Below, one piece after another: positions 3,615 through 31,107 of a DNA stretch of 33,366 nucleotides. Source of the DNA: Nitrospirota bacterium (lineage in GTDB: Bacteria > Nitrospirota > Thermodesulfovibrionia > Thermodesulfovibrionales > UBA6898); contig JAKAIZ010000009.1 in assembly GCA_021814065.1 (NCBI GenBank), positions 1 through 33,366 of the forward strand. The letters run 5' to 3'. Under the pieces are notes generated by a model. That model saw only the letters and a list, made by a program, of their open reading frames with translations, ran no database searches and was not told the DNA's origin. Position 1 is the stretch's first letter; every line of letters begins with the position of its first letter. A program made the position numbers and the translations under genes.

Positions 3615-3684
3615 GTCGCGAGGAGCAATGCGTCTTTACCCCTTTCTTCTAACACCTAACTCCTGACTCCTTTGAACCTTGAAC
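3609..3684. repeat. GAGTC/CTCCT word tract
   Basis: A spacer with words such as CACCTAACTCCTGACTCC. GAGTC (3613-3617) and AGGAG (3621-3625) are complementary to CTCCT (3660-3664) and GACTC (3665-3669), giving a bulged stem. Its last part (TTGAACCTTGAAC) runs directly into the Wzm start codon. Confidence 0.5.
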
Positions 3685-4518
3685 ATGGAACTTAGAACCA
3701 TCAATCGGACGGTCATCAGACCGTCAGGGGGCCGTCCTTCGCTCGACCTCGGCGAGGTGTGGGCATACCGCGAGCTGCTCGGGATGCTCGCCTGGAGGGA
3801 CGTCTCGGTCCGCTACAAGCAGTCGGTCGCAGGGATCGGCTGGGCGGTCTTCCAGCCCCTGATGACGATGGTGATCTTCACGATCATCTTCGGCAAGTTC
3901 GCGAAGCTCCCGTCGGACGGGCTCCCTTATCCGGTATTCGCATACTGCGCATTGCTGCCCTGGAACTACTTCAGCCAGTCTCTGACAGGGTCGTCCGACA
4001 GCATCGTCGGCTCTTCGTATCTCATCACCAAGGTCTATTTCCCGAGGCTGGTCCTGCCGCTCGGCAAGGTCACCTCCGGCCTGATAGATTTCGGCGTCGC
4101 CTTCGTCATTCTTTTGGGCATGATGGCATGGTACGGGATCGCGCCGACATTCGGCATACTCCTTCTGCCGGTCTTTATGCTCGTGGCGATGCTCACCGCC
4201 TTAGGCGTGGGGCTCTGGTTCACGGCGCTGAACGTGAAATACCGGGACGTAAGGTTCATAGTCCCCTATATAGCCCAGTTCTGGCTCTTCGCGTCGCCGG
4301 TGGCCTATTCCACCAGCCTTGTGCCGGAGAAGTGGCGGTGGCTCTACGGCCTCAACCCGATGGTCGGCGTGATCGAGGGCTTCCGCTGGGCGCTCCTCGG
4401 AAAGGCGGCGCCCGACTTCGGGATGATGCTTGCCTCCTTCGGCGCGGTCTGCATGGTCCTGGTTACCGGCCTCTACTACTTCAGGAGGATGGAGGAGACG
4501 TTTGCGGATAATGTGTAG
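3685..4518 (+). CDS. wzm: Wzm-type ABC polysaccharide exporter, permease (first pair)
   Basis: A 277-aa integral inner-membrane protein of the ABC-2 family that forms the channel of a polysaccharide exporter with the ATPase at 4759. Family signals include YRELLGMLAWRDVSVRYKQ at the cytoplasmic N-terminal amphipathic region and VYFPRLVLPL. Others are LTALGVGLWFTALNVKYRDV and LNPMVGVIEGFRWALLG near the C-terminus. Hydrophobic stretches suggest six membrane segments. A TTG two codons upstream (3679) is possible, but ATG 3685 is preferred. The first ~8 codons have the same composition as the spacer word tract, so the start region may be tract-derived. A paralog lies at 11840. Confidence 0.9.
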   Translation: MELRTINRTVIRPSGGRPSLDLGEVWAYRELLGMLAWRDVSVRYKQSVAGIGWAVFQPLMTMVIFTIIFGKFAKLPSDGLPYPVFAYCALLPWNYFSQSLTGSSDSIVGSSYLITKVYFPRLVLPLGKVTSGLIDFGVAFVILLGMMAWYGIAPTFGILLLPVFMLVAMLTALGVGLWFTALNVKYRDVRFIVPYIAQFWLFASPVAYSTSLVPEKWRWLYGLNPMVGVIEGFRWALLGKAAPDFGMMLASFGAVCMVLVTGLYYFRRMEETFADNV

Positions 4519-4598
4519 AAAGCAAAGAGCATAGAGCATAGAGTTTCAAGCGTGAGAAAGCAAAGTGCGGAGAGCTAGAGGCTCTAAGTTAATCATTC
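4519..4598. repeat. AGAGCATAG-type purine word tract
   Basis: Words such as GAGCATAGAGCATAGAG and AAAGCAAAG fill the gap between the permease and an S23 remnant. A small stem AGAGC/GCTCT is present. No matching reverse-complement half is seen downstream, where the S23 gene is truncated. Confidence 0.45.
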
Positions 4599-4766
4599 AT
4601 GAATAAATTCCGTTTTGAGAACCTGGAAATTTGGCGAAGATCGGTAGAAGTTGCAAGGAAATTATTTCGGCTGGCCGATGACCTCGAAAACAATAAACTG
4701 TATCGGTTTGCTGATCAACTCAGAGGTGCCGGACTCTCAATGCCGAACAACTTAGCCTGTGTCTAA
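4599..4766 (+). pseudogene. 5' remnant of S23-type four-helix-bundle gene
   Basis: Reading from ATG 4599 gives 55 residues starting MNKFRFENLEIWRRSVEVAR and ending LSMPNNLACV before TAA. This is clearly the N-terminal half of the four-helix-bundle (S23/rRNA intervening-sequence) family, in which the next residues would normally be IAEG. Homology stops exactly where the start of the Wzt gene begins (GTG 4759, another frame). A deletion or insertion has therefore joined the two. Intact relatives of ~123 aa lie at 12769 and 29789. It is probably non-functional, but its DNA supplies the upstream region of the ATPase gene. Confidence 0.75.
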
Positions 4767-5997
4767 CGACGTAGTAATAAAGGTTTCCAATCTGGGCAAG
4801 AGATACCGCCTCGGCCGGCTGCATGACAACAACCTGCTAAGCGAAAAGATCGGCAATGGCCTGCGCTCCATATTTCAGAGGTTCCGTGACCTTTCACCTT
4901 TCCCTTTTCACCTTTCACAGGAAAAGGATTTCTGGGCCATTCGAGAGGTGGCCTTCGAAATAAAACAGGGCGAGGTCGTCGGGATCGTCGGCAGGAACGG
5001 CACAGGCAAGAGCACGCTCCTGAAGATACTGTCGCGCGTAACCGGGCCTACCGAAGGGGAGGTCGAGCTGCTCGGCAGGGTCGGGAGCCTGCTGGAGGTC
5101 GGGACCGGATTTCACCCGGAGCTGACAGGCAGGGAGAACATCTTCATGAACGGGGCGATTCTCGGGATGAAGAGGGCCGAGATCAAGGGCAGGTTCGACG
5201 AGATCGTCGGGTTCGCCGAGGTCGAAAAGTTCGTCGACACTCCGGTCAAGCACTACTCCTCGGGCATGTACGTGCGGCTTGCCTTCTCGGTCGCCGCGCA
5301 CCTCGAGCCGGAGGTCCTGCTCGTCGACGAGGTGCTGGCGGTCGGCGACGCCGCCTTCCAGAAGAAGTGCCTCGGCAAGATCGGGGAGGTGGCAAGGGGG
5401 GGCCGGACGGTCCTGTTCGTCAGCCACAACATGGCCTCGGTGAAGACGCTCTGCGGAAGGGCGATACTCCTCGAAGGCGGCCGCGTGGTCATGGACGGCG
5501 ATGCGGCAAGTGTGGTCGACCGGTACCTCGGGGACCCGGGCATGAAGGTCGCTTCCTACCGCATGGCCGCGGGGAAGAAACCGCCCTGTTTCCGCAGCAT
5601 CGAGCTTATCCAGGAGGAGCGGAAGAACGGCGCCTTTGCCGCTGACAGGCCGGTGAGGATCTCTTTCTCGATCGACAGCGGCGGAGAGAAAGGGCTCGGC
5701 GTCAACCTCTTCATCCGCAACGAGCAGGGGGTCTGCATCCACCATTCCGCGGATTCCTTCGTGGGCCCCTCCGGAGTCTCCGGGCCGGGGGAGCGGACCT
5801 GCGAGATACCGGCTTACGGGCTTGCGGCCGGGAGGTACCGTGTCGACGTCTCCCTGTCTCGCGGGGAGCTCGAGGTCTTCGACTACCTGCAGGACGCGCT
5901 TATATTCCAGACCGGCCTCACAGATGCCACCGACGACAAGGCCAGGGCTGCCCGCTGGAGAGGCCTCTGCGGCCCGGGATTGATACGGTGGGAATAG
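4759..5997 (+). CDS. wzt: Wzt-type ABC polysaccharide exporter, ATPase with C-terminal sugar-binding domain (first pair)
   Basis: A 412-aa cytosolic ATPase partner of the permease at 3685. Walker A is GRNGTGKS at 78-85, the signature is YSSGM at 166-170, Walker B is LLVDE at 187-191 and the switch histidine is H223. Residues ~265-412 form the extra C-terminal domain that in Wzt proteins recognises the end of the finished chain. The GTG start lies inside the S23 remnant with no clear ribosome-binding site. Residues ~43-53 (DLSPFPFHLSQ) are encoded by CCTTTCACCTTT words like those of the spacer at 1665-1733 and look like an in-frame insertion before the first conserved strand. A full paralog is at 13919. 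Confidence 0.9.
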   Translation: MSNDVVIKVSNLGKRYRLGRLHDNNLLSEKIGNGLRSIFQRFRDLSPFPFHLSQEKDFWAIREVAFEIKQGEVVGIVGRNGTGKSTLLKILSRVTGPTEGEVELLGRVGSLLEVGTGFHPELTGRENIFMNGAILGMKRAEIKGRFDEIVGFAEVEKFVDTPVKHYSSGMYVRLAFSVAAHLEPEVLLVDEVLAVGDAAFQKKCLGKIGEVARGGRTVLFVSHNMASVKTLCGRAILLEGGRVVMDGDAASVVDRYLGDPGMKVASYRMAAGKKPPCFRSIELIQEERKNGAFAADRPVRISFSIDSGGEKGLGVNLFIRNEQGVCIHHSADSFVGPSGVSGPGERTCEIPAYGLAAGRYRVDVSLSRGELEVFDYLQDALIFQTGLTDATDDKARAARWRGLCGPGLIRWE

Positions 5998-9694: not shown

Positions 9695-9748
9695 ACCGCA
9701 TTATGGTAGACTTAAGAATAAATGTCATGCTGTTGGGAGGAGTTGAAA

Positions 9749-9970
9749 ATGGCAACTGTGTCTATAGACCGCAATGAGCTAAGAAAGATTATCAGCGAAA
9801 CGTTTGTCGATGTCCTGACCAAACGGAAGGACCTTATTGAGGATGCTGTGGTGGACGCGATTGAAGACATCGGCCTTGCGGCGGCTATGCAAGAAGGGCG
9901 GACCGGTGACTACGTCGATAAGAGAGAATTTGTGCGGAAACTGGACAGCAGAATCAAGCGCTCAAAGTGA
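9749..9970 (+). CDS. Putative RelE-partner antitoxin
   Basis: A 73-aa acidic-helical protein starting MATVSIDRNELRKIISETF, with a central EDAVVDAIEDIGLAAAMQEG helix and a C-terminal VDKREFVRKL segment. This is the common layout of small antitoxins encoded before RelE-type toxins. ATG 9749 is chosen because GGGAGGAG at 9735-9742 is ideally spaced. An upstream ATG at 9722 would put that site inside the gene. Its stop codon overlaps the GTG start of the toxin by 4 bases. I do not assign a named family. Confidence 0.7.
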   Translation: MATVSIDRNELRKIISETFVDVLTKRKDLIEDAVVDAIEDIGLAAAMQEGRTGDYVDKREFVRKLDSRIKRSK

Positions 9971-10242
9971 AATTCAGGATCGAAAAGTCGTTTGACAAAG
10001 ACGTTGACAGTATCAGCGACAAGAATGTGCTGAAGAAATTGCGCACTTTTGTTGCTGCGATAGAAGGCGCAGAATCGATCCGGGAAATACCGCACCTCAA
10101 AAAAATCGAAGGTTTCAGCTCATTTTACCGGGTTAAGATTGGTGACTACCGGTTGGGATTGGAGATCTCACGAAAGGAAGCTGTCCTCGTGCGATTTCTC
10201 CACAGAAAGGACATTTACCGGTATTTTCCGAAGAGAGGATGA
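9967..10242 (+). CDS. RelE/ParE-family toxin
   Basis: A 91-aa protein from GTG 9967. It starts MKFRIEKSFDKDVDSI and has an LKKIEGFSSFYRVKIGDYRL core and a VRFLHRKDIYRYFPKRG end. These match RelE-type toxins, which cleave ribosome-bound mRNA (RelE) or poison gyrase (ParE). Sequence alone does not say which. The R and K residues around YRVKIGDYR and the terminal HRKDIY are in place, so it is probably intact. Its last 17 codons (from 10192) are duplicated at 11342-11392 as part of a 269-bp repeat. Confidence 0.83.
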   Translation: MKFRIEKSFDKDVDSISDKNVLKKLRTFVAAIEGAESIREIPHLKKIEGFSSFYRVKIGDYRLGLEISRKEAVLVRFLHRKDIYRYFPKRG

Positions 10243-11610: not shown

Positions 11611-11698
11611 TTAAACTTTGAAACTTAGACCGCTTATCCCTTAATCCTGAGTTGCAAGACTTGACAAATCAAGAAACAAGACCTGACCCCATTGTGCG
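11611..11698 (+). repeat. Composite repeat R, copy 6
   Basis: A TTAAACTTTGAAACTTAGAC lead-in, CGCTTATCCCTTAATCC, and a complete core from 11652 ending CTGACCCC. Confidence 0.82.
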
Positions 11699-11705
11699 AC
11701 TTGAT

Positions 11706-11796
11706 GAACTCGTTGCTCGGTACTCATTGCTTCGATCCCTTATCCTGAGTTGCAAGACTTGACAAATCAAGAAACAAGACCTGACCCCATTTTGCG
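11706..11796 (+). repeat. Composite repeat R, copy 7
   Basis: A GAACTCGTTGCTCGGTACTC lead-in as in copy 5, with a complete core from 11750. A further ACGACTTGACAGGCTGG scrap follows at ~11811-11827, just before the second Wzm gene. It closes the TA island. Confidence 0.83.
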
Positions 11797-11839: not shown

Positions 11840-12667
11840 ATGGCTGAAGAAACCACATTAGTAATCGAAGCGGGACGGACAGAGAAGCACTACTGGCTGG
11901 ACCTCTGGCGGTACCGGGAGCTTTTTTACTTCCTGGCGTGGCGGGATATCCTCGTCCGCTACAAACAGACGGTAATCGGTATCGCATGGGCGTTGATCCG
12001 GCCATTCCTCACTATGCTGGTTTTTACCGTCGTGTTTGGCAAGTTGGCGAAGCTGCCGTCCGAGGGTGTGCCCTATCCTATTTTGGTCTTTGCCGCAATG
12101 CTGCCGTGGCAGTTTTTCTCAAATGCGTTGTCGGAGGCAAGCAACAGCCTTGTCGGAAACGCAAACCTCATCTCTAAGGTATACTTTCCTCGTCTGATCA
12201 TACCGGCCAGTTCGGTCATCACGAGTTTTGTCGATTTTCTCATCTCTGGCGCAATCCTCGTTGCGCTCATGGTGTGGTATCAGTTTGTTCCTGGTTGGCG
12301 CGTTTTTTACCTGTCGGTATTTATCGGGATCGCATTCGCAGCGGCCATGGGTGCAGGACTTTGGCTTACTGCCCTGAACGTCAAATACCGTGATTTTCGC
12401 TATATCGTCCCGTTTATTGTCCAGTTCGGCCTTTATGTCTCACCTGTCGGATTTTCGAGCAGTATTGTCCCCGGCAAGTGGCGGCTTCTTTATTCGCTGA
12501 ATCCGATGGTCGGGGTCATCGACGGTTTCCGCTGGGCTCTCCTCGGCGGCGAAAGCAAAATCTATATGCCTGGGTTTGTTCTCTCCATGGCTATTGTTGT
12601 AGCACTACTTATTACCGGTATCCTGTACTTCAGGAAGACAGAGAAGTCCTTCGCGGATGTAATTTAA
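11840..12667 (+). CDS. wzm: Wzm-type ABC polysaccharide exporter, permease (second pair)
   Basis: A 275-aa ABC-2 permease and paralog of the protein at 3685. It shares WRYRELFYFLAWRDILVRYK, GKLAKLPSEGVPYP, a KVYFPRLIIP motif, LTALNVKYRDF and LNPMVGVIDGFRWALLGG. Six hydrophobic segments are apparent. Its DNA is more AT-rich than that of the first pair, so the two are not a recent tandem duplication. It is probably the export channel for the cluster that follows, paired with the ATPase at 13919 despite the three genes between them. Confidence 0.9.
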   Translation: MAEETTLVIEAGRTEKHYWLDLWRYRELFYFLAWRDILVRYKQTVIGIAWALIRPFLTMLVFTVVFGKLAKLPSEGVPYPILVFAAMLPWQFFSNALSEASNSLVGNANLISKVYFPRLIIPASSVITSFVDFLISGAILVALMVWYQFVPGWRVFYLSVFIGIAFAAAMGAGLWLTALNVKYRDFRYIVPFIVQFGLYVSPVGFSSSIVPGKWRLLYSLNPMVGVIDGFRWALLGGESKIYMPGFVLSMAIVVALLITGILYFRKTEKSFADVI

Positions 12668-12673
12668 AAACAC

Positions 12674-13165
12674 GATGCTGGAAACTTGATACTGGTCACT
12701 GGATTCTGGTCTCAAGTATCGAGTATCCAGAATCAAGTATCCGGAGCCCAGCGACCTAAGTTGTTTCCATGAATATATCGTATAGAGATTTAGATATCTA
12801 TAAATTAGCTCACGAATTGGGAGTGACACTGCACAAATTCTCCCTAAAATTGCCGAAACATGAACTATATGAGACAGGCAGCCAGATGCGACGTGCTTCC
12901 AAATCGGTCTCAACCAATATTGTGGAAGGCTATGGTAGGCGTAGATATAAAGCAGAATTCATCAGGTTCCTGATCTTTGCGCAGGCATCCTGTGATGAAA
13001 CAACGGAATGGCTGGAATACATTCATGACTGTTATAAGAATCTCGAAGAAGAGGCAGAACAGCTTCTTTCCAGGACTGATGAACTTGGAAAGAAGATAAA
13101 TCGCTTTATCCAGGCTGTTGAATCTAAACATCAAGTATGACATCCATCATCAAGTCTCCAGCATC
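12674..13165 (+). mobile_element. Inverted-repeat-flanked S23 element (candidate)
   Basis: GATGCTGGAAACTTGAT (12674-12690) is matched at 16 of 17 positions by the reverse complement of ATCAAGTCTCCAGCATC (13149-13165). Between them lies one gene, the S23-type protein at 12769-13140. A further inner dyad GATTCTGG/CCAGAATC is at 12702-12709 and 12727-12734. Complementary ends around an S23 gene are the layout of 23S rRNA intervening sequences, but here the unit sits between two protein genes. Mobility is inferred. Confidence 0.4.
12769..13140 (+). CDS. S23-type four-helix-bundle protein
   Basis: A 123-aa protein of the family first seen in rRNA intervening sequences. It starts YRDLDIYKLAHELGV and has QMRRASKSVSTNIVEGYGRR and FLIFAQASCDETTEWLEY. 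It has four amphipathic helices and a conserved N-I-x-E-G turn. Family members form pentameric bundles; the molecular role is unknown. It lies between wzm and wzt, in the same slot as the remnant at 4599 in the first exporter pair. It is flanked by an inverted repeat. Confidence 0.87.
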   Translation: MNISYRDLDIYKLAHELGVTLHKFSLKLPKHELYETGSQMRRASKSVSTNIVEGYGRRRYKAEFIRFLIFAQASCDETTEWLEYIHDCYKNLEEEAEQLLSRTDELGKKINRFIQAVESKHQV

Positions 13166-13305
13166 TAGTTTCGCGGATCGAGTGTCGATCAGCGAAAGTC
13201 CAGCATCTTGTATCCAGCTTTCAAGAGTCCAGCATCTTGTTTCTAGTTTCTGGTATCTGGCATCCAGCAACAAGAAGCGAGTATCCAGTAACCAGCAGCG
13301 TGTCT
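13141..13305. repeat. TCCAGCATC-type word tract
   Basis: At least ten degenerate words such as TCCAGCATCTAGTTTC, GTATCCAGTAACCAGC and CATCCAGCAACAAG. The same word appears before the S23 gene in reverse complement (12674-12765), after hicB at 13812-13918, and inside the wzt gene at ~14060-14100. Confidence 0.7.
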
Positions 13306-13344: not shown

Positions 13345-13599
13345 ATGAGCAGATATGACAAACTCATTGCCCGATTATTGCAAGGCGATGCTGATACCAA
13401 CATGGCATTTGATGATTTGTGCGATCTCCTTCAGCGCCTTGGATTTGAAATGCGTACGCGGGGCAGCCATCATATCTTCAGGAAGTCAGGCATTGAGGAA
13501 AGGATCAATTTGCAAAGAGACGGTGATAAGGCGAAGGCTTACCAGGTTCGCCAGATAAGATCGATTATATTGAAATACAACCTCAAGGGGGTGAAGTGA
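13345..13599 (+). CDS. hicA: HicA-type toxin (second pair)
   Basis: An 84-aa protein with FDDLCDLLQRLGFEMRTRGS, then G40-S41-H42-H43 in RGSHHIF, the HicA catalytic histidine context. The end RQIRSIILKYNLKGVK fits the family. It is slightly longer at the N-terminus than the HicA at 9273 and belongs to a different subgroup. ATG 13345 overlaps the stop codon of a 4-codon mini-frame, so it may be reached by coupled translation. It sits between wzm and wzt of the second exporter, an unusual place for a TA pair. Confidence 0.83.
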   Translation: MSRYDKLIARLLQGDADTNMAFDDLCDLLQRLGFEMRTRGSHHIFRKSGIEERINLQRDGDKAKAYQVRQIRSIILKYNLKGVK

Positions 13600-13811
13600 T
13601 GGAAAAATATGAAATCATTATCTACTGGAGCAGTGAAGATAGTGTATTCGTTGCTGAAGTCCCGGAGTTGCCAGGCTGTATGGCGCACGGCGCAACACAT
13701 GAAGATGCCCTGCTGCAGGTGAAGGAGGCTATTCATTTATGGATGGATACTGCCAGAGAGTTCGGTGATCCTATACCGAGTCCCAAAGGCAGACGTCTTG
13801 TATTTGCATGA
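13599..13811 (+). CDS. hicB: HicB-type antitoxin (second pair)
   Basis: A 70-aa protein, MEKYEIIIYWSSEDSVFVAE then VPELPGCMAHGATHEDALLQ and VKEAIHLWMDTARE, the HicB partial RNase-H-like fold without a DNA-binding tail. ATG 13599 shares one base with the hicA stop codon. AAGGGGGTG at 13585-13593 is the ribosome site. A GTG one codon upstream (13596) is less likely. Confidence 0.85.
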   Translation: MEKYEIIIYWSSEDSVFVAEVPELPGCMAHGATHEDALLQVKEAIHLWMDTAREFGDPIPSPKGRRLVFA

Positions 13812-13918
13812 ATGACGCCGCAAGTATCCAGTATCCAGCAACTAGTAACGGGTAACAAGCATCCGGGACCGGCATTAGTGATCTAGTTCCGCGCATCCAT
13901 TAACGAGAAACAGGCAAT
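13812..13918. repeat. GTATCCAGC-type word tract
   Basis: Words AAGTATCCAGTATCCAGCAAC and CATCCGGGACCGGC precede the wzt start. They are of the same family as 13141-13305. Confidence 0.6.
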
Positions 13919-15181
13919 ATGTCCGATACGGTCATCAAAGTTGACAATTTAAGCAAATCCTACACCATCAGCCACAAGTCCAATGAACGATATGTGGCTT
14001 TGCGCGATGTTATTACAGACAAGTTCAAAGCTATTGGCTCAAAGCTTAGTTTAAGAAATCGAGCATCCAGTAACCAGCATCCAGCATCAAGTAGCAAGGA
14101 ACAGTTTTATGCTCTTCGCGACGTTTCTTTCGAAATCAAACGCGGTGATCGAGTGGGCATTATCGGCAGAAACGGAGCTGGGAAGTCTACTCTGTTAAAG
14201 GTGCTCAGCCGGATTACCGAACCTACAAGCGGGAGAATAGAGATTACTGGGCGAGTGGCGAGCCTTCTGGAGGTGGGAACGGGATTCCATCCTGAGTTGA
14301 CGGGGCGAGAAAATATTTTTCTCAACGGGGCTATTTTGGGGATGACGAAAGCCGAGATTAAAAGGAAATTCGATGAGATCGTCGATTTTGCGGAGATTGA
14401 AAAATTCCTGGATACTCCCGTGAAAAGATATTCGTCGGGAATGTATGTGCGCCTCGCCTTTGCAGTGGCGGCGCACTTGGAACCGGAGATACTTATCGTT
14501 GATGAAGTGCTGGCGGTGGGGGATGCGCAGTTTCAGAAGAAGTGTTTGGGGAAGATGGAGGAAGTAGGGAGGGAAGGTCGGACGGTGTTGTTTGTGAGTC
14601 ATAATATGGCTGCTGTGCAAAGACTCTGTAGCCGGGCGGTCATGTTGTCCGAAGGCCATGTTGTGGCTGACGACGATAAGGGAACTGTTGTAGAACGCTA
14701 TCATCTTGACTGCAGTCATGCTGCTTCTTCTTCAAGGCCTTTTTTTGCACCAGAGTCCCCGTATACAAATTTGGCGGTGACCATCGATGGTCGGTCACAG
14801 AACGGCCAACATTTTTGGGACCCAGTTAAGCCGCTGGATTTGACGATGACCATTGACTGTAATAAAGCGATGACATGCCCTATGGTTGACATAGCATTCT
14901 TTAGGCTTGATGGCTGCAAACTTTTTGCTCTTCAAAGCTATCATCTGCTTGATTATAATGAGGACGACAGGCGCAACCGTTGGGTGTTAAGGTTTTTGCT
15001 AAGTAATGCTAGTCTGGTCCCGCAAACAATATATTTTGATATTGGTGTGCGAGATCGTGGAGGTGGATATCTCATTCATTGGATTAGGATCGCTGAGATT
15101 AAAGTTCAGGACCGCGATCACCTTATGAAGGTTACATCTGATTCTTTGATATGGCCGGATGTTCGAGCATCGATTGGGTAA
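13919..15181 (+). CDS. wzt: Wzt-type ABC polysaccharide exporter, ATPase with C-terminal domain (second pair)
   Basis: A 420-aa ATPase with Walker A GRNGAGKS at 83-90, signature YSSGM at 171-175, Walker B ILIVDE at 191-196 and switch H228. Residues ~262-420 form a C-terminal domain unlike that of the first Wzt, so the two exporters probably recognise different chains. Residues ~48-61 (RASSNQHPASSSKE) are encoded by CATCCAGTAACCAGCATCC words identical in style to the flanking spacers. They fall between the first strand and the nucleotide-binding core, so this is an in-frame tract insertion in a loop. ATG 13919 gives the normal N-terminus MSDTVIKVDNLSKSY. Confidence 0.9.
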   Translation: MSDTVIKVDNLSKSYTISHKSNERYVALRDVITDKFKAIGSKLSLRNRASSNQHPASSSKEQFYALRDVSFEIKRGDRVGIIGRNGAGKSTLLKVLSRITEPTSGRIEITGRVASLLEVGTGFHPELTGRENIFLNGAILGMTKAEIKRKFDEIVDFAEIEKFLDTPVKRYSSGMYVRLAFAVAAHLEPEILIVDEVLAVGDAQFQKKCLGKMEEVGREGRTVLFVSHNMAAVQRLCSRAVMLSEGHVVADDDKGTVVERYHLDCSHAASSSRPFFAPESPYTNLAVTIDGRSQNGQHFWDPVKPLDLTMTIDCNKAMTCPMVDIAFFRLDGCKLFALQSYHLLDYNEDDRRNRWVLRFLLSNASLVPQTIYFDIGVRDRGGGYLIHWIRIAEIKVQDRDHLMKVTSDSLIWPDVRASIG

Positions 15182-28956: not shown

Positions 28957-28962
28957 TATAAT
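28957..28962 (+). promoter_or_regulatory. Candidate -10 box for mntA-hepT
   Basis: A perfect TATAAT that also contains the first base pair of an ATG (28961), which is a poor start candidate. TTGACA lies only 6 bases upstream (28945-28950), too close for a normal -35/-10 pair. The real promoter geometry is unclear. Confidence 0.35.
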
Positions 28963-28972
28963 GAAATCAGCC

Positions 28973-29266
28973 ATGAAGACAAGAGAAGACATTCAGATAT
29001 TGCTCTCTGAACTAAAAGATTCCCTCGAACACGACTACGGAGTCAGGGAGATCGGCCTGTTTGGCTCGTATGTGCGGGGCGATCAACGTTCAGGGAGCGA
29101 TGTTGATATCCTTGTTGAATTCGAAAGGCCGGTGGGTCTTTTGGAGTTCGTCGGGCTGAAGTATTATTTGTCGGATATGCTCGAAATGCCCGTGGATCTT
29201 GTGATGAAAAATTCACTTAGGCCTGCAATAGGGCAAAGAATTCTTCGGGAAGTCATCTATGTCTGA
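28973..29266 (+). CDS. mntA: MntA-type antitoxin nucleotidyltransferase
   Basis: A 97-aa minimal nucleotidyltransferase. GSYVRGDQRSGSDVDILVE contains the complete G-S-x10-D-x-D catalytic motif (G31, S32, D43, D45). In characterised MntA-HepT systems this enzyme adenylylates a tyrosine on the HEPN toxin and so inactivates it. ATG 28973 is preferred over 28961, which lies in the TATAAT box. It overlaps hepT by 8 bases. Confidence 0.87.
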   Translation: MKTREDIQILLSELKDSLEHDYGVREIGLFGSYVRGDQRSGSDVDILVEFERPVGLLEFVGLKYYLSDMLEMPVDLVMKNSLRPAIGQRILREVIYV

Positions 29267-29612
29267 GAAAAGAGAGATTGTTGACTACATCGCTGATGCT
29301 ATTGACGCGATGAATAAGGCTGAGAAGTTTGTCGAAGGTATGTCATTCGAGATTTTCAAAGAGGATGATAAGACAGTGTTTGCAGTGATTCGTGCCCTGG
29401 AAGTGATTGGCGAAGCTGTAAAAAATGTTCCGGAGGAGTCGCGGGACGCTGCCGCGCATATTCCATGGAAGCAGATAGCGGGCATGAGAGATATATTGAT
29501 TCATGAGTACTTCGGGGTTGATCTCGAGACACTGTGGCAAACAGTCAAGGTTAATATTCCCCAAACAAAACCGCTGCTTTCCGCATTTCTTGCAACACTG
29601 CAAAAGAATTAG
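29259..29612 (+). CDS. hepT: HepT-type HEPN ribonuclease toxin
   Basis: A 117-aa all-helical HEPN protein. The active R-x4-H-x-Y motif is complete in MRDILIHEYF (R77, H82, Y84), and Y84 is the expected modification site for MntA. An upstream AVIRALEVIGEAVKNVPEES helix is typical. Released HepT cuts RNA. Both partners look intact, so the module is probably active. Confidence 0.88.
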   Translation: MSEKREIVDYIADAIDAMNKAEKFVEGMSFEIFKEDDKTVFAVIRALEVIGEAVKNVPEESRDAAAHIPWKQIAGMRDILIHEYFGVDLETLWQTVKVNIPQTKPLLSAFLATLQKN

Positions 29613-29669: not shown

Positions 29670-29747
29670 CTCGATTGCTTACTCAGGACGAAGATGGATG
29701 TGATTGTGCTGAATGACTGGTTCATTAGTCGAAAGGCAGTCGAATAG
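29670..29747 (+). pseudogene. Carbamoyltransferase C-terminal remnant, copy 2
   Basis: LDCLLRTKMDVIVLNDWFIS, followed by RKAVE and stop, aligns with the scraps at 28674 and 33102. Only the last 25 codons remain. The terminal RKAVE is encoded by the AGTCGAAAGGCAGTCG word tract, so the tract has replaced the native end. Confidence 0.7.
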
Positions 29748-29895
29748 TCGAGAGTCGAAAGACAGTCAAAGGCACTTAGCAATCAAACATGAAAATACAG
29801 AGGTTTGAAGATATTATTGCCTGGCAGAAAGCAAGGGAACTGGTCGCGGAGATCTACAGACTGACGAATGCCTCAGAAAACTTCAAAAAAGACTT
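29670..29895 (+). repeat. Long direct repeat, copy 1 (S23 5' half and upstream)
   Basis: Matches 33135-33366. It covers the carbamoyltransferase scrap, an AGTCGAGAGTC word tract and the first 107 bases of the S23 gene. The S23 part is identical by eye. The other copy has a 6-base insertion (ACTAAG) before the gene. The match continues up to the window edge. Confidence 0.92.
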
Positions 29896-30184
29896 TGGGC
29901 TTAGAGAACAGGTTCGCAGGGCGGCTGTTTCCGCCATGTCAAACATTGCCGAGGGGTTTGGTCGCAATAGTGACAAGGAGATGGCGAATTTTCTGAATAT
30001 TGCCAGTGGATCGTTATCAGAAGTTCAAAGCCAGATTTATGTTGCACTCGACCTGCAATACATCGGGACAGATTCTTTTGATACGGTTTATTCTTTAGCA
30101 GGTGAAACAAGCCGGCTTCTTACTGCTTTCATGAAATATCTCCGAAAGCCAACCAAATGACCCCTAACCTCCCAGACTCTCGAC
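29747..30184 (+). mobile_element. Inverted-repeat-flanked S23 element (candidate)
   Basis: GTCGAGAGTC at 29747-29756 and its exact reverse complement GACTCTCGAC at 30175-30184 bracket the single S23 gene at 29789-30160. CGAA lies just outside both arms (one base offset). The layout is the same as at 12674-13165. Confidence 0.4.
29789..30160 (+). CDS. S23-type four-helix-bundle protein
   Basis: A 123-aa member of the S23/rRNA intervening-sequence family: MKIQRFEDIIAWQKARELVA, then LREQVRRAAVSAMSNIAEGF with the diagnostic N-I-A-E-G, then a SLSEVQSQIYVALDLQYI helix. It differs clearly in sequence from the protein at 12769, so it is not a local copy of that. An identical 5' half begins at 33260, so this gene lies inside a long direct repeat. 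Function unknown. Confidence 0.88.
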   Translation: MKIQRFEDIIAWQKARELVAEIYRLTNASENFKKDFGLREQVRRAAVSAMSNIAEGFGRNSDKEMANFLNIASGSLSEVQSQIYVALDLQYIGTDSFDTVYSLAGETSRLLTAFMKYLRKPTK

Positions 30185-30198
30185 ATGTTCGGACTTAA

Positions 30199-31107
30199 AT
30201 GACTGTTTCTATTATCACCGCCGTATTTAACAATGCGCAGCATATCGCTTCCTGCCTCGAAAGCATTCACTCCCAGTCCTGGCCCGGCATCGAACACATC
30301 ATCATCGACGGTGGGTCTACTGACGGAACGCTTCAGGTCATTGAAGAAGTCATGAGTCGAGAGTCCCGAGCAACGAGTCAAAAGGACAGTAAAAGAGTCG
30401 AAGAGTCGGGTGTCAAAGGGGTGAGGGTTATAAGTGAGCCCGACAACGGCATTTACGACGCGCTCAACAAGGGTATAAAGCTGGCGACCGGAGACGTGAT
30501 CGGCTTCCTCCACGCCGACGACATTTATGCAGATAAAACAGTCATAGAAAAAGTGGCAAAGGCCATGACTGAAAGCAATGTAGACAGCTGCTACGGGGAT
30601 CTGGTGTATGTAAAAGACAGCGAACAAGCTATCAGGCCGACAAGCTTACAAGCGGCAAGGCAAGACAGCGAACAAGCTAACAAGCCGACAAGCTGGCAAG
30701 CCTGCAAGCCTGCAAGCGATTCACGATTCACGGTTGTGCGTTACTGGAAGTCGGGGCCTTATGAGAAGGGGCTTTTCAAAAAAGGCTGGATGCCTCCGCA
30801 CCCCACTTTTTTTGTGAGGCGCGAGGTGTATAGAAGGTTAGGAGCCTTCGATACCGGACTCAGGATCGCAGCCGACTACGAACTGATGCTAAGGTTCCTC
30901 TGGGAAAATGATATCTCGACGTGCTACATCCCCGAGGTTCTCATAAAGATGCGGACAGGGGGCGCAAGCAACGGAAGCCTCCGAAACATTCTTAAAAAAT
31001 CGGCCGAGGACTATAAGGCGATGAGGATGCACGGGCTTGGCGGGATGACGACGCTCTTCCGAAAGAATTTGTCGAAGATACCGCAATTTTTTAAAAAAAT
31101 CGGGTGA
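30199..31107 (+). CDS. Glycosyltransferase family 2 with two in-frame tract insertions
   Basis: A 302-aa GT-A enzyme: MTVSIITAVFNNAQHIASCL, IIIDGGSTDGT, ISEPDNGIYDALNKGIK, FLHADDIY (metal-binding DD), MPPHPTFFVRREVY and RIAADYELMLRFLWE. It belongs to the WcaA/PgaC-like group common in EPS loci. Residues ~53-76 and ~140-177 have no counterpart in the family. The first is encoded by AGTCGAGAGTCCCGAGC words (30355-30426). The second (30616-30729) has a SEQAIRPTSLQAA / SEQANKPTSWQA internal duplication and is the reverse complement of the GCTTGTTAGC tract family. Both leave the frame open and fall in loops between conserved motifs. Confidence 0.88.
   Translation: MTVSIITAVFNNAQHIASCLESIHSQSWPGIEHIIIDGGSTDGTLQVIEEVMSRESRATSQKDSKRVEESGVKGVRVISEPDNGIYDALNKGIKLATGDVIGFLHADDIYADKTVIEKVAKAMTESNVDSCYGDLVYVKDSEQAIRPTSLQAARQDSEQANKPTSWQACKPASDSRFTVVRYWKSGPYEKGLFKKGWMPPHPTFFVRREVYRRLGAFDTGLRIAADYELMLRFLWENDISTCYIPEVLIKMRTGGASNGSLRNILKKSAEDYKAMRMHGLGGMTTLFRKNLSKIPQFFKKIG

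Follow-up and report, generated by a model that had tools for sequence, protein, structure and literature searches.

In a stretch of DNA of 33,366 nucleotides from a Nitrospirota bacterium (GenBank contig JAKAIZ010000009.1; this whole stretch is called the window below), a gene of the S23 family, whose products are also known as intervening-sequence proteins (IVPs), is found between wzm and wzt. The gene and the repeat arrays on its two sides probably make up a mobile element that resembles the intervening sequences (IVSs) of 23S rRNA but resides outside rRNA, with one S23/IVP gene enclosed by complementary, inverted arrays of short units, mostly of 7 nt. The anatomy and polarity of such elements, the transfer of the arms together with the gene, the empty sites and a recurrent target can be seen directly in the genomes compared. 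An IVS-like element outside rRNA had been suggested in a preliminary description of this DNA, and the suggestion is supported by an excess of inverted flanks around S23 genes, by empty alleles and by an archaeal pair of loci that share arm, gene and arm.

The S23 gene and its arms

The gene (12769-13140, + strand) codes for a protein of 123 amino acids (aa), which had been taken for an S23 four-helix bundle. This assignment holds, as the product matches PF05635 (2.4e-28) and TIGR02436 (7.3e-29), its PF05635 score being 98.9 bits against a curated cut-off of 33.8. Solved structures are available in the family (PDB relatives 2GSC and 2RLD). The upstream cistron is wzm (11840-12667, + strand; PF01061, 5.8e-20), coding for the membrane protein of an ABC-2 transporter, and the downstream cistron is wzt (13919-15181, + strand; PF00005, 5.8e-24), coding for an ABC transporter ATPase. 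No rRNA was detected by Rfam in the window or in 12 key loci, and a single fuzzy 23S signature was seen in just 2 of 165 loci.

The 17-bp inverted repeat reported around the gene was confirmed: GATGCTGGAAACTTGAT at 12674-12690 and ATCAAGTCTCCAGCATC at 13150-13166 are complementary at 16 of 17 positions, a pairing that was reached by none of 200 shuffles of the 110-bp flanks. The pairing is real, but the two 17-mers are not the ends of the element. Both are slices of longer, degenerate 7-nt tandem arrays (ATCCAGC, ATCAAGT, ATCGAGT), and a longer match of the arms covers 28 nt at 82% (12668-12695 with 13144-13171). On the left side, inverted heptamers come first at 12668-12710, the arm 12668-12695 being their outer part, and direct heptamers follow at 12711-12757 (TCAAGTA TCGAGTA TCCAGAA TCAAGTA TCC). 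On the right, beginning with the arm at 13144-13171, the array is direct throughout 13144-13303, and its continuation at 13197-13303 gives a 49-column inverted alignment of 13197-13245 with 12665-12712. It appears again, in the same direction, past the hicAB genes (13820-13870), and an array is also found within wzt (14056-14109, + strand), where an ATCCAGC-type array with the same unit as the arms occupies the N-terminal linker and reads RASSNQHPASSSKEQ. In the predicted RNA fold of the element, the closing stem is formed by these arms (z -3.1).

A pattern search of the genome found the ATCCAGC-type unit repeated nowhere else, with just isolated one-mismatch matches, and the pattern matched in 3 of 120 relatives. 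The unit is so rare beyond its own locus that it is unusable as a search key.

Inverted flanks around S23 genes in other genomes

Two sets of genes were surveyed. One comprised 103 complete S23 genes of relatives in the same order, together with flanks of 250 bp, and the other was an independent set of 79 S23 genes picked by protein pattern from genomes of many phyla, including archaea. The collection scan ran on an alignment of a closer S23 subfamily. The assignment of control open reading frames (ORFs) and gene starts was mechanical, related loci are only partly independent of one another, and most of the genomes are metagenome assemblies.

In the order-level set, the flank-to-flank inverted similarity had a mean of 14.2, against 8.5 in dinucleotide shuffles; 54 of the 103 genes were above all 60 shuffles and 65 were above the 95th percentile obtained when flanks were exchanged among genes. 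A score of at least 13 was obtained for 49.5% of these genes as against 3.2% of the other ORFs of 80-200 aa in the same loci. The corresponding shares in the multi-phylum set were 67% (53/79) and 4.6%, and at a score of at least 17 they were 46% and 2.5%. The 53 positive genes span Bacteroidota, Planctomycetota, Omnitrophota, Cloacimonadota, Nitrospirota, archaea and others. Among other small mobile genes of the same genomes, inverted flanks were found around none of 24 HepT and none of 16 ParE genes. The excess on which the preliminary description had staked its case is thus present, and strong, whichever comparison is used: shuffled flanks, exchanged flanks, other ORFs or further small mobile genes. 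Plasmids also carry S23 genes (seven cyanobacterial and one from Riemerella), and 7 of these 8 have obvious inverted heptamer arms, such as TAGGGAG in eight copies and CTCCCTA in five on the two sides of the gene in a Nostoc plasmid. Phages were searched for S23 and none was found.

It may be argued that such flanks are an artefact of chance or composition, in which two short low-complexity tracts of skewed AT/GC content happen to pair. Low-complexity flanks do raise random matches, and the second S23 gene of the window has a match of 10 nt only. The dinucleotide shuffles, the swapped flanks, the matched control ORFs and the HepT and ParE genes, however, leave chance pairing extremely improbable, and it was rejected.

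Anatomy, polarity and distribution of the arrays

The arms are about 30 nt long and stand close to the gene, at a median of 27 bp before the start and 18.5 bp past the stop, and the median length of the element is 494 bp (10-90%: 429-621). The length of the unit, taken as the best lag, is 7 in 60 and 8 in 24 of the 93 measured arms; the arrays have a peak at period 7 and can be described as tandem 7-nt repeats. The unit differs among loci, but any one S23 gene has a single type of unit on its two sides, in opposite orientations. On the coding strand of S23, G exceeds C in 96 of 104 upstream arms and C exceeds G in 94 of 104 downstream arms. Of 174 S23 genes, 137 run in the same direction as both neighbours and just 7 lie antisense within an operon, while both intergenic gaps are at most 200 bp in 74%. 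The S23 proteins are basic (median isoelectric point 9.0), and the predicted RNA fold of the Nostoc element has an unbroken stem exceeding 30 bp (z -8.1).

Such an anatomy could also belong to a resident S23 gene regulated through its own inverted arrays, the S23 protein binding the hairpin of its mRNA and controlling its own translation or stability, with nothing mobile involved. The fixed polarity, the closeness of the arms to the gene, the basic proteins and the strong stems agree with this. Autoregulation is nevertheless unlikely in view of empty alleles with conserved flanks, of an arm-gene-arm unit common to genomes with unrelated flanks and of unrelated S23 proteins at the same junction. 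Besides, the units are unrelated between S23 proteins below 60% identity, which would be odd for a conserved binding site.

Arrays account for 23.8% of the bases within 100 bp of S23 genes, 5.8% at 100-250 bp and 1.0% at 4-8 kb, and for 0.23% in 20 stretches of 20 kb drawn at random from these genomes. Two arrays without S23 (L265:13368-13447 and L265:1743-1862) form hairpins on their own (GGTGAAG ... CTTCACC) and are possibly gene-less derivatives; an inverted partner lies nearby in 31% of 170 solo arrays.

The arrays themselves might instead be primary and driven by slippage, in the manner of the short tandemly repeated repetitive (STRR) heptamers, with S23 genes merely inserting into or recombining at them. 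Solo arrays exist, an array without an S23 gene occupies the cas6-cas4 site of Pseudanabaena ABRG5-3, and the hicAB genes of the window lie between same-direction arrays, as an insertion into an array would yield. But insertion into one array gives direct flanks, whereas those of S23 are inverted and of fixed polarity, and simple insertion into a pre-existing array was disfavoured on this ground. The HepT and ParE genes show no such flanks, the density of arrays next to S23 is about 100 times that of random DNA, and S23 pairs of at least 70% identity bring the same unit to unrelated sites. The priority of arrays is, therefore, scarcely likely.

Empty sites and transfer of the unit

Mobility of the element is indicated by places where occupied and empty sites can be compared. 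In plasmid pNe_5 of Nostoc edaphicum, an S23 element sits between nrdB and nrdA, while Calothrix NIES-4105 has an nrdB-nrdA operon 85% identical to that of pNe_5 without the element; the extra DNA of pNe_5 is bounded by the outer ends of its two arrays. In Anabaena sp. 90, an S23 element is found between cas6 and cas4, and Dolichospermum UHCC 0315A has flanks 98.5-99.3% identical at this place with no S23. Similarly, wzm and wzt abut or nearly abut in relatives of the source genome. Thus, the empty sites called for in the preliminary description exist, at nrdB-nrdA and cas6-cas4 in cyanobacterial plasmids and at wzm-wzt.

Transfer of the whole unit is evident in archaea. An ANME-1 contig and a Methanomicrobiales contig (L194 and L201) share 511 bp at 88.7% identity, which is exactly arm, gene and arm, and the surroundings of this 511-bp element are unrelated between the two. 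More generally, where the members of an S23 pair at non-collinear loci were at least 70% identical, they had the unit in common (7 of 7 cases). Below 60% identity, the resemblance of units is that of the background, though the arms of one element still match. It follows that the arms travel with the gene and are kept alike within each element, while they change quickly between elements.

Several observations weigh against a mobile element. The cas6-cas4 gap of Dolichospermum is not vacant but filled by another hairpin insert, and the contig L201 may be misbinned. Between a third and half of the S23 genes have no detectable inverted pair at the threshold, and one of these is the second S23 gene of the window, with a weak inverted 10-mer (29747-29756 with 30175-30184; p 0.08). 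In the loci examined, there are 170 solo arrays without S23. S23 is the sole gene of the element, with no transposase or other gene for mobility known for it, and the search for helpers in trans covered reverse transcriptase (RT) only. Target-site duplication as a general rule is not supported, the clear cases being limited to two loci (L139, 4130-4660, and L133), where direct copies of 17 and 30 nt, including the ribosome-binding site of the next gene, flank the S23 unit; these are possible target duplications.

The hairpin in the Dolichospermum gap (L262:1070-1320) is of the CCCAACC type and stands where Anabaena sp. 90 has its S23 element, and the cas6-cas4 gap seems to be a hot spot.

A recurrent target between wzm and wzt

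The wzm-wzt junction was hit twice in the window. Apart from the gene at 12769-13140, a third, truncated S23 gene of a different subfamily (4599-4766, + strand) lies at the junction of another wzm-wzt pair (3679-4518 and 4759-5997), with an AGAGCAT-type array upstream of it at about 4519-4562. S23 units are also found at this junction in three further genomes (G071, G010 and G001), in six Bacteroidota loci and in one Aminicenantes locus. The wzm of G071 is 85.6% identical in DNA to that of the window, and the junction there has a different S23 gene with different arms.

The array of the wzt linker is made of ATCCAGC heptamers in the window and of the ATTCACT type in G071, while the second wzt of the window (TTTCACC type, 4875-4930) and the wzt of another genome, G009, have yet other units at the same linker. 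Arrays of different sequence have thus been fixed independently at the same tolerant spots.

Proposed mechanism

The IVSs of 23S rRNA are excised by RNase III and are tolerated because the rRNA works in pieces. The gap between cistrons would be the other place where cutting of a transcript is harmless. The element is placed in the sense direction between genes that are transcribed together (here wzm and wzt), and the transcript of the host operon would fold into a long stem with S23 in the loop. By analogy, cutting of this stem by RNase III could set free the S23 message without damage to either host cistron, and the element would be tolerated because its hairpin sits between them. The S23 protein, which is basic and similar to Avd, may bind the hairpin and help the element or its arrays to multiply. 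The arms would be homogenised inside each element yet change rapidly from one element to another, and like arrays might multiply or lengthen nearby, reaching even coding linkers. If S23 maintained or dispersed arrays, this would account for the local arrays in wzt and in a glycosyltransferase gene of the window.

A broader proposal, possible but put forward only tentatively, is that S23 elements are an autonomous class of mobile DNA in which the S23 protein produces or disperses heptamer arrays: it would bind the hairpin, drive templated copying of the arms, which keeps them matched within the element, and seed solo arrays nearby. The heptamers of cyanobacteria and others would then be footprints of S23, and the rRNA IVSs one special insertion site.

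Other features of the window

The second S23 gene of the window (29789-30160, + strand; PF05635, 2.9e-35) has an AGTCGAA-type array upstream (29735-29784). The neighbouring glycosyltransferase gene (30199-31107) has two in-frame, low-complexity, array-like inserts (30352-30412 and 30619-30731), one of which resembles this array.

The polysaccharide region holds three toxin-antitoxin pairs: RelB-like/ParE (9722-10242), HicAB (13345-13811) and MntA/HepT (28961-29612). HicAB, composed of the HicA toxin gene (13345-13599, + strand; PF07927, 4.4e-8) and a HicB-like antitoxin gene (13599-13811, + strand; PF15919, 8.8e-11), is a separate neighbour of the S23 element. It has same-direction arrays on both sides, as though inserted into an array; that at 13820-13870 has the unit and direction of 13197-13303, and the two were probably one array split by HicAB. 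Upstream of wzm, two direct copies of 60 nt (11639-11698 and 11737-11796) are 95% identical and 98 bp apart.

Significance

The S23 family, the rRNA IVSs and the heptamer arrays of cyanobacteria, Xanthomonas and Beggiatoaceae are already known. S23/IVP proteins are widespread, and we know of no function for them. The rRNA IVSs are viewed as oddities of rRNA, and heptamer arrays have been reported repeatedly with no cause given. No report of S23 genes outside rRNA bounded by inverted heptamer arrays was found in the open-access literature, and the unit of about 500 bases between operon genes of bacteria and archaea appears to be undescribed. The present analysis joins the three subjects and offers a possible source for unexplained seven-base repeats, as well as a testable substrate for S23 proteins, namely, their own hairpin. 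Annotators also gain a way to spot a common small element in operons of polysaccharide export, CRISPR and nucleotide metabolism.

Comparison with known systems

Heptamer repeats are known from GGGAATC of Xanthomonas and Nostoc (PMC4692102) and TAACTGA of Beggiatoaceae (PMC4679880), the former being reported to show no association with mobile elements (PMC4692102). The cyanobacterial STRR and like heptamers resemble the present arrays in being degenerate 7-nt tandem repeats, mostly intergenic and at times inverted or intragenic. They have been reported without a link to S23, whereas the arrays described here form inverted pairs of fixed polarity around genes of one family. A large survey of CRISPR-linked genes names the 23S rRNA IVP among proteins tied to predicted CRISPR arrays (PMC10910872), a listing that heptamer arrays or insertion into cas operons may explain.

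With insertion sequences and miniature inverted-repeat transposable elements, the S23 element shares inverted ends, empty sites and small size. It differs from them in having no transposase, no fixed terminal sequence and apparently no consistent target duplication; S23 is its only gene, the arm sequences differ by locus, and no relative acting in trans through common ends is apparent, the search for helpers having covered RT only.

The basic, nucleic-acid-binding Avd and bAvd proteins of diversity-generating retroelements belong to the same four-helix-bundle superfamily as S23, which is likewise basic and presumably binds nucleic acid. S23 elements, however, do not need an RT. The RT domain RVT_1 was not detected in the S23-rich genomes G007 and G032, and by this search, which covered RT and not template or variable repeats, the S23 element does not qualify as such a retroelement; with several S23-rich genomes free of detected RVT_1, RT as an obligatory helper was rejected.

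The closest likeness is to the 23S rRNA IVSs of Coxiella and Leptospira (PMC4990558), in which an S23 gene also lies in the hairpin loop of complementary ends, the length is similar, and the distribution is sporadic and horizontally spread; layout and gene orientation agree as well. The Coxiella IVS is 428-444 nt long and has a 28-bp stem, which RNase III cleaves. Directly upstream of its S23 gene stand GACAGAT-type heptamers, two to four in tandem, which vary among strains (PMC4990558). The element described here has the complementary ends and the S23 ORF in the loop, but it lies between protein genes, its arms are long arrays of locus-specific repeats, and the S23 genes of such elements are mostly intact. 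As the defining location in rRNA is lacking, it should not be called a 23S rRNA IVS, though it is built like one.
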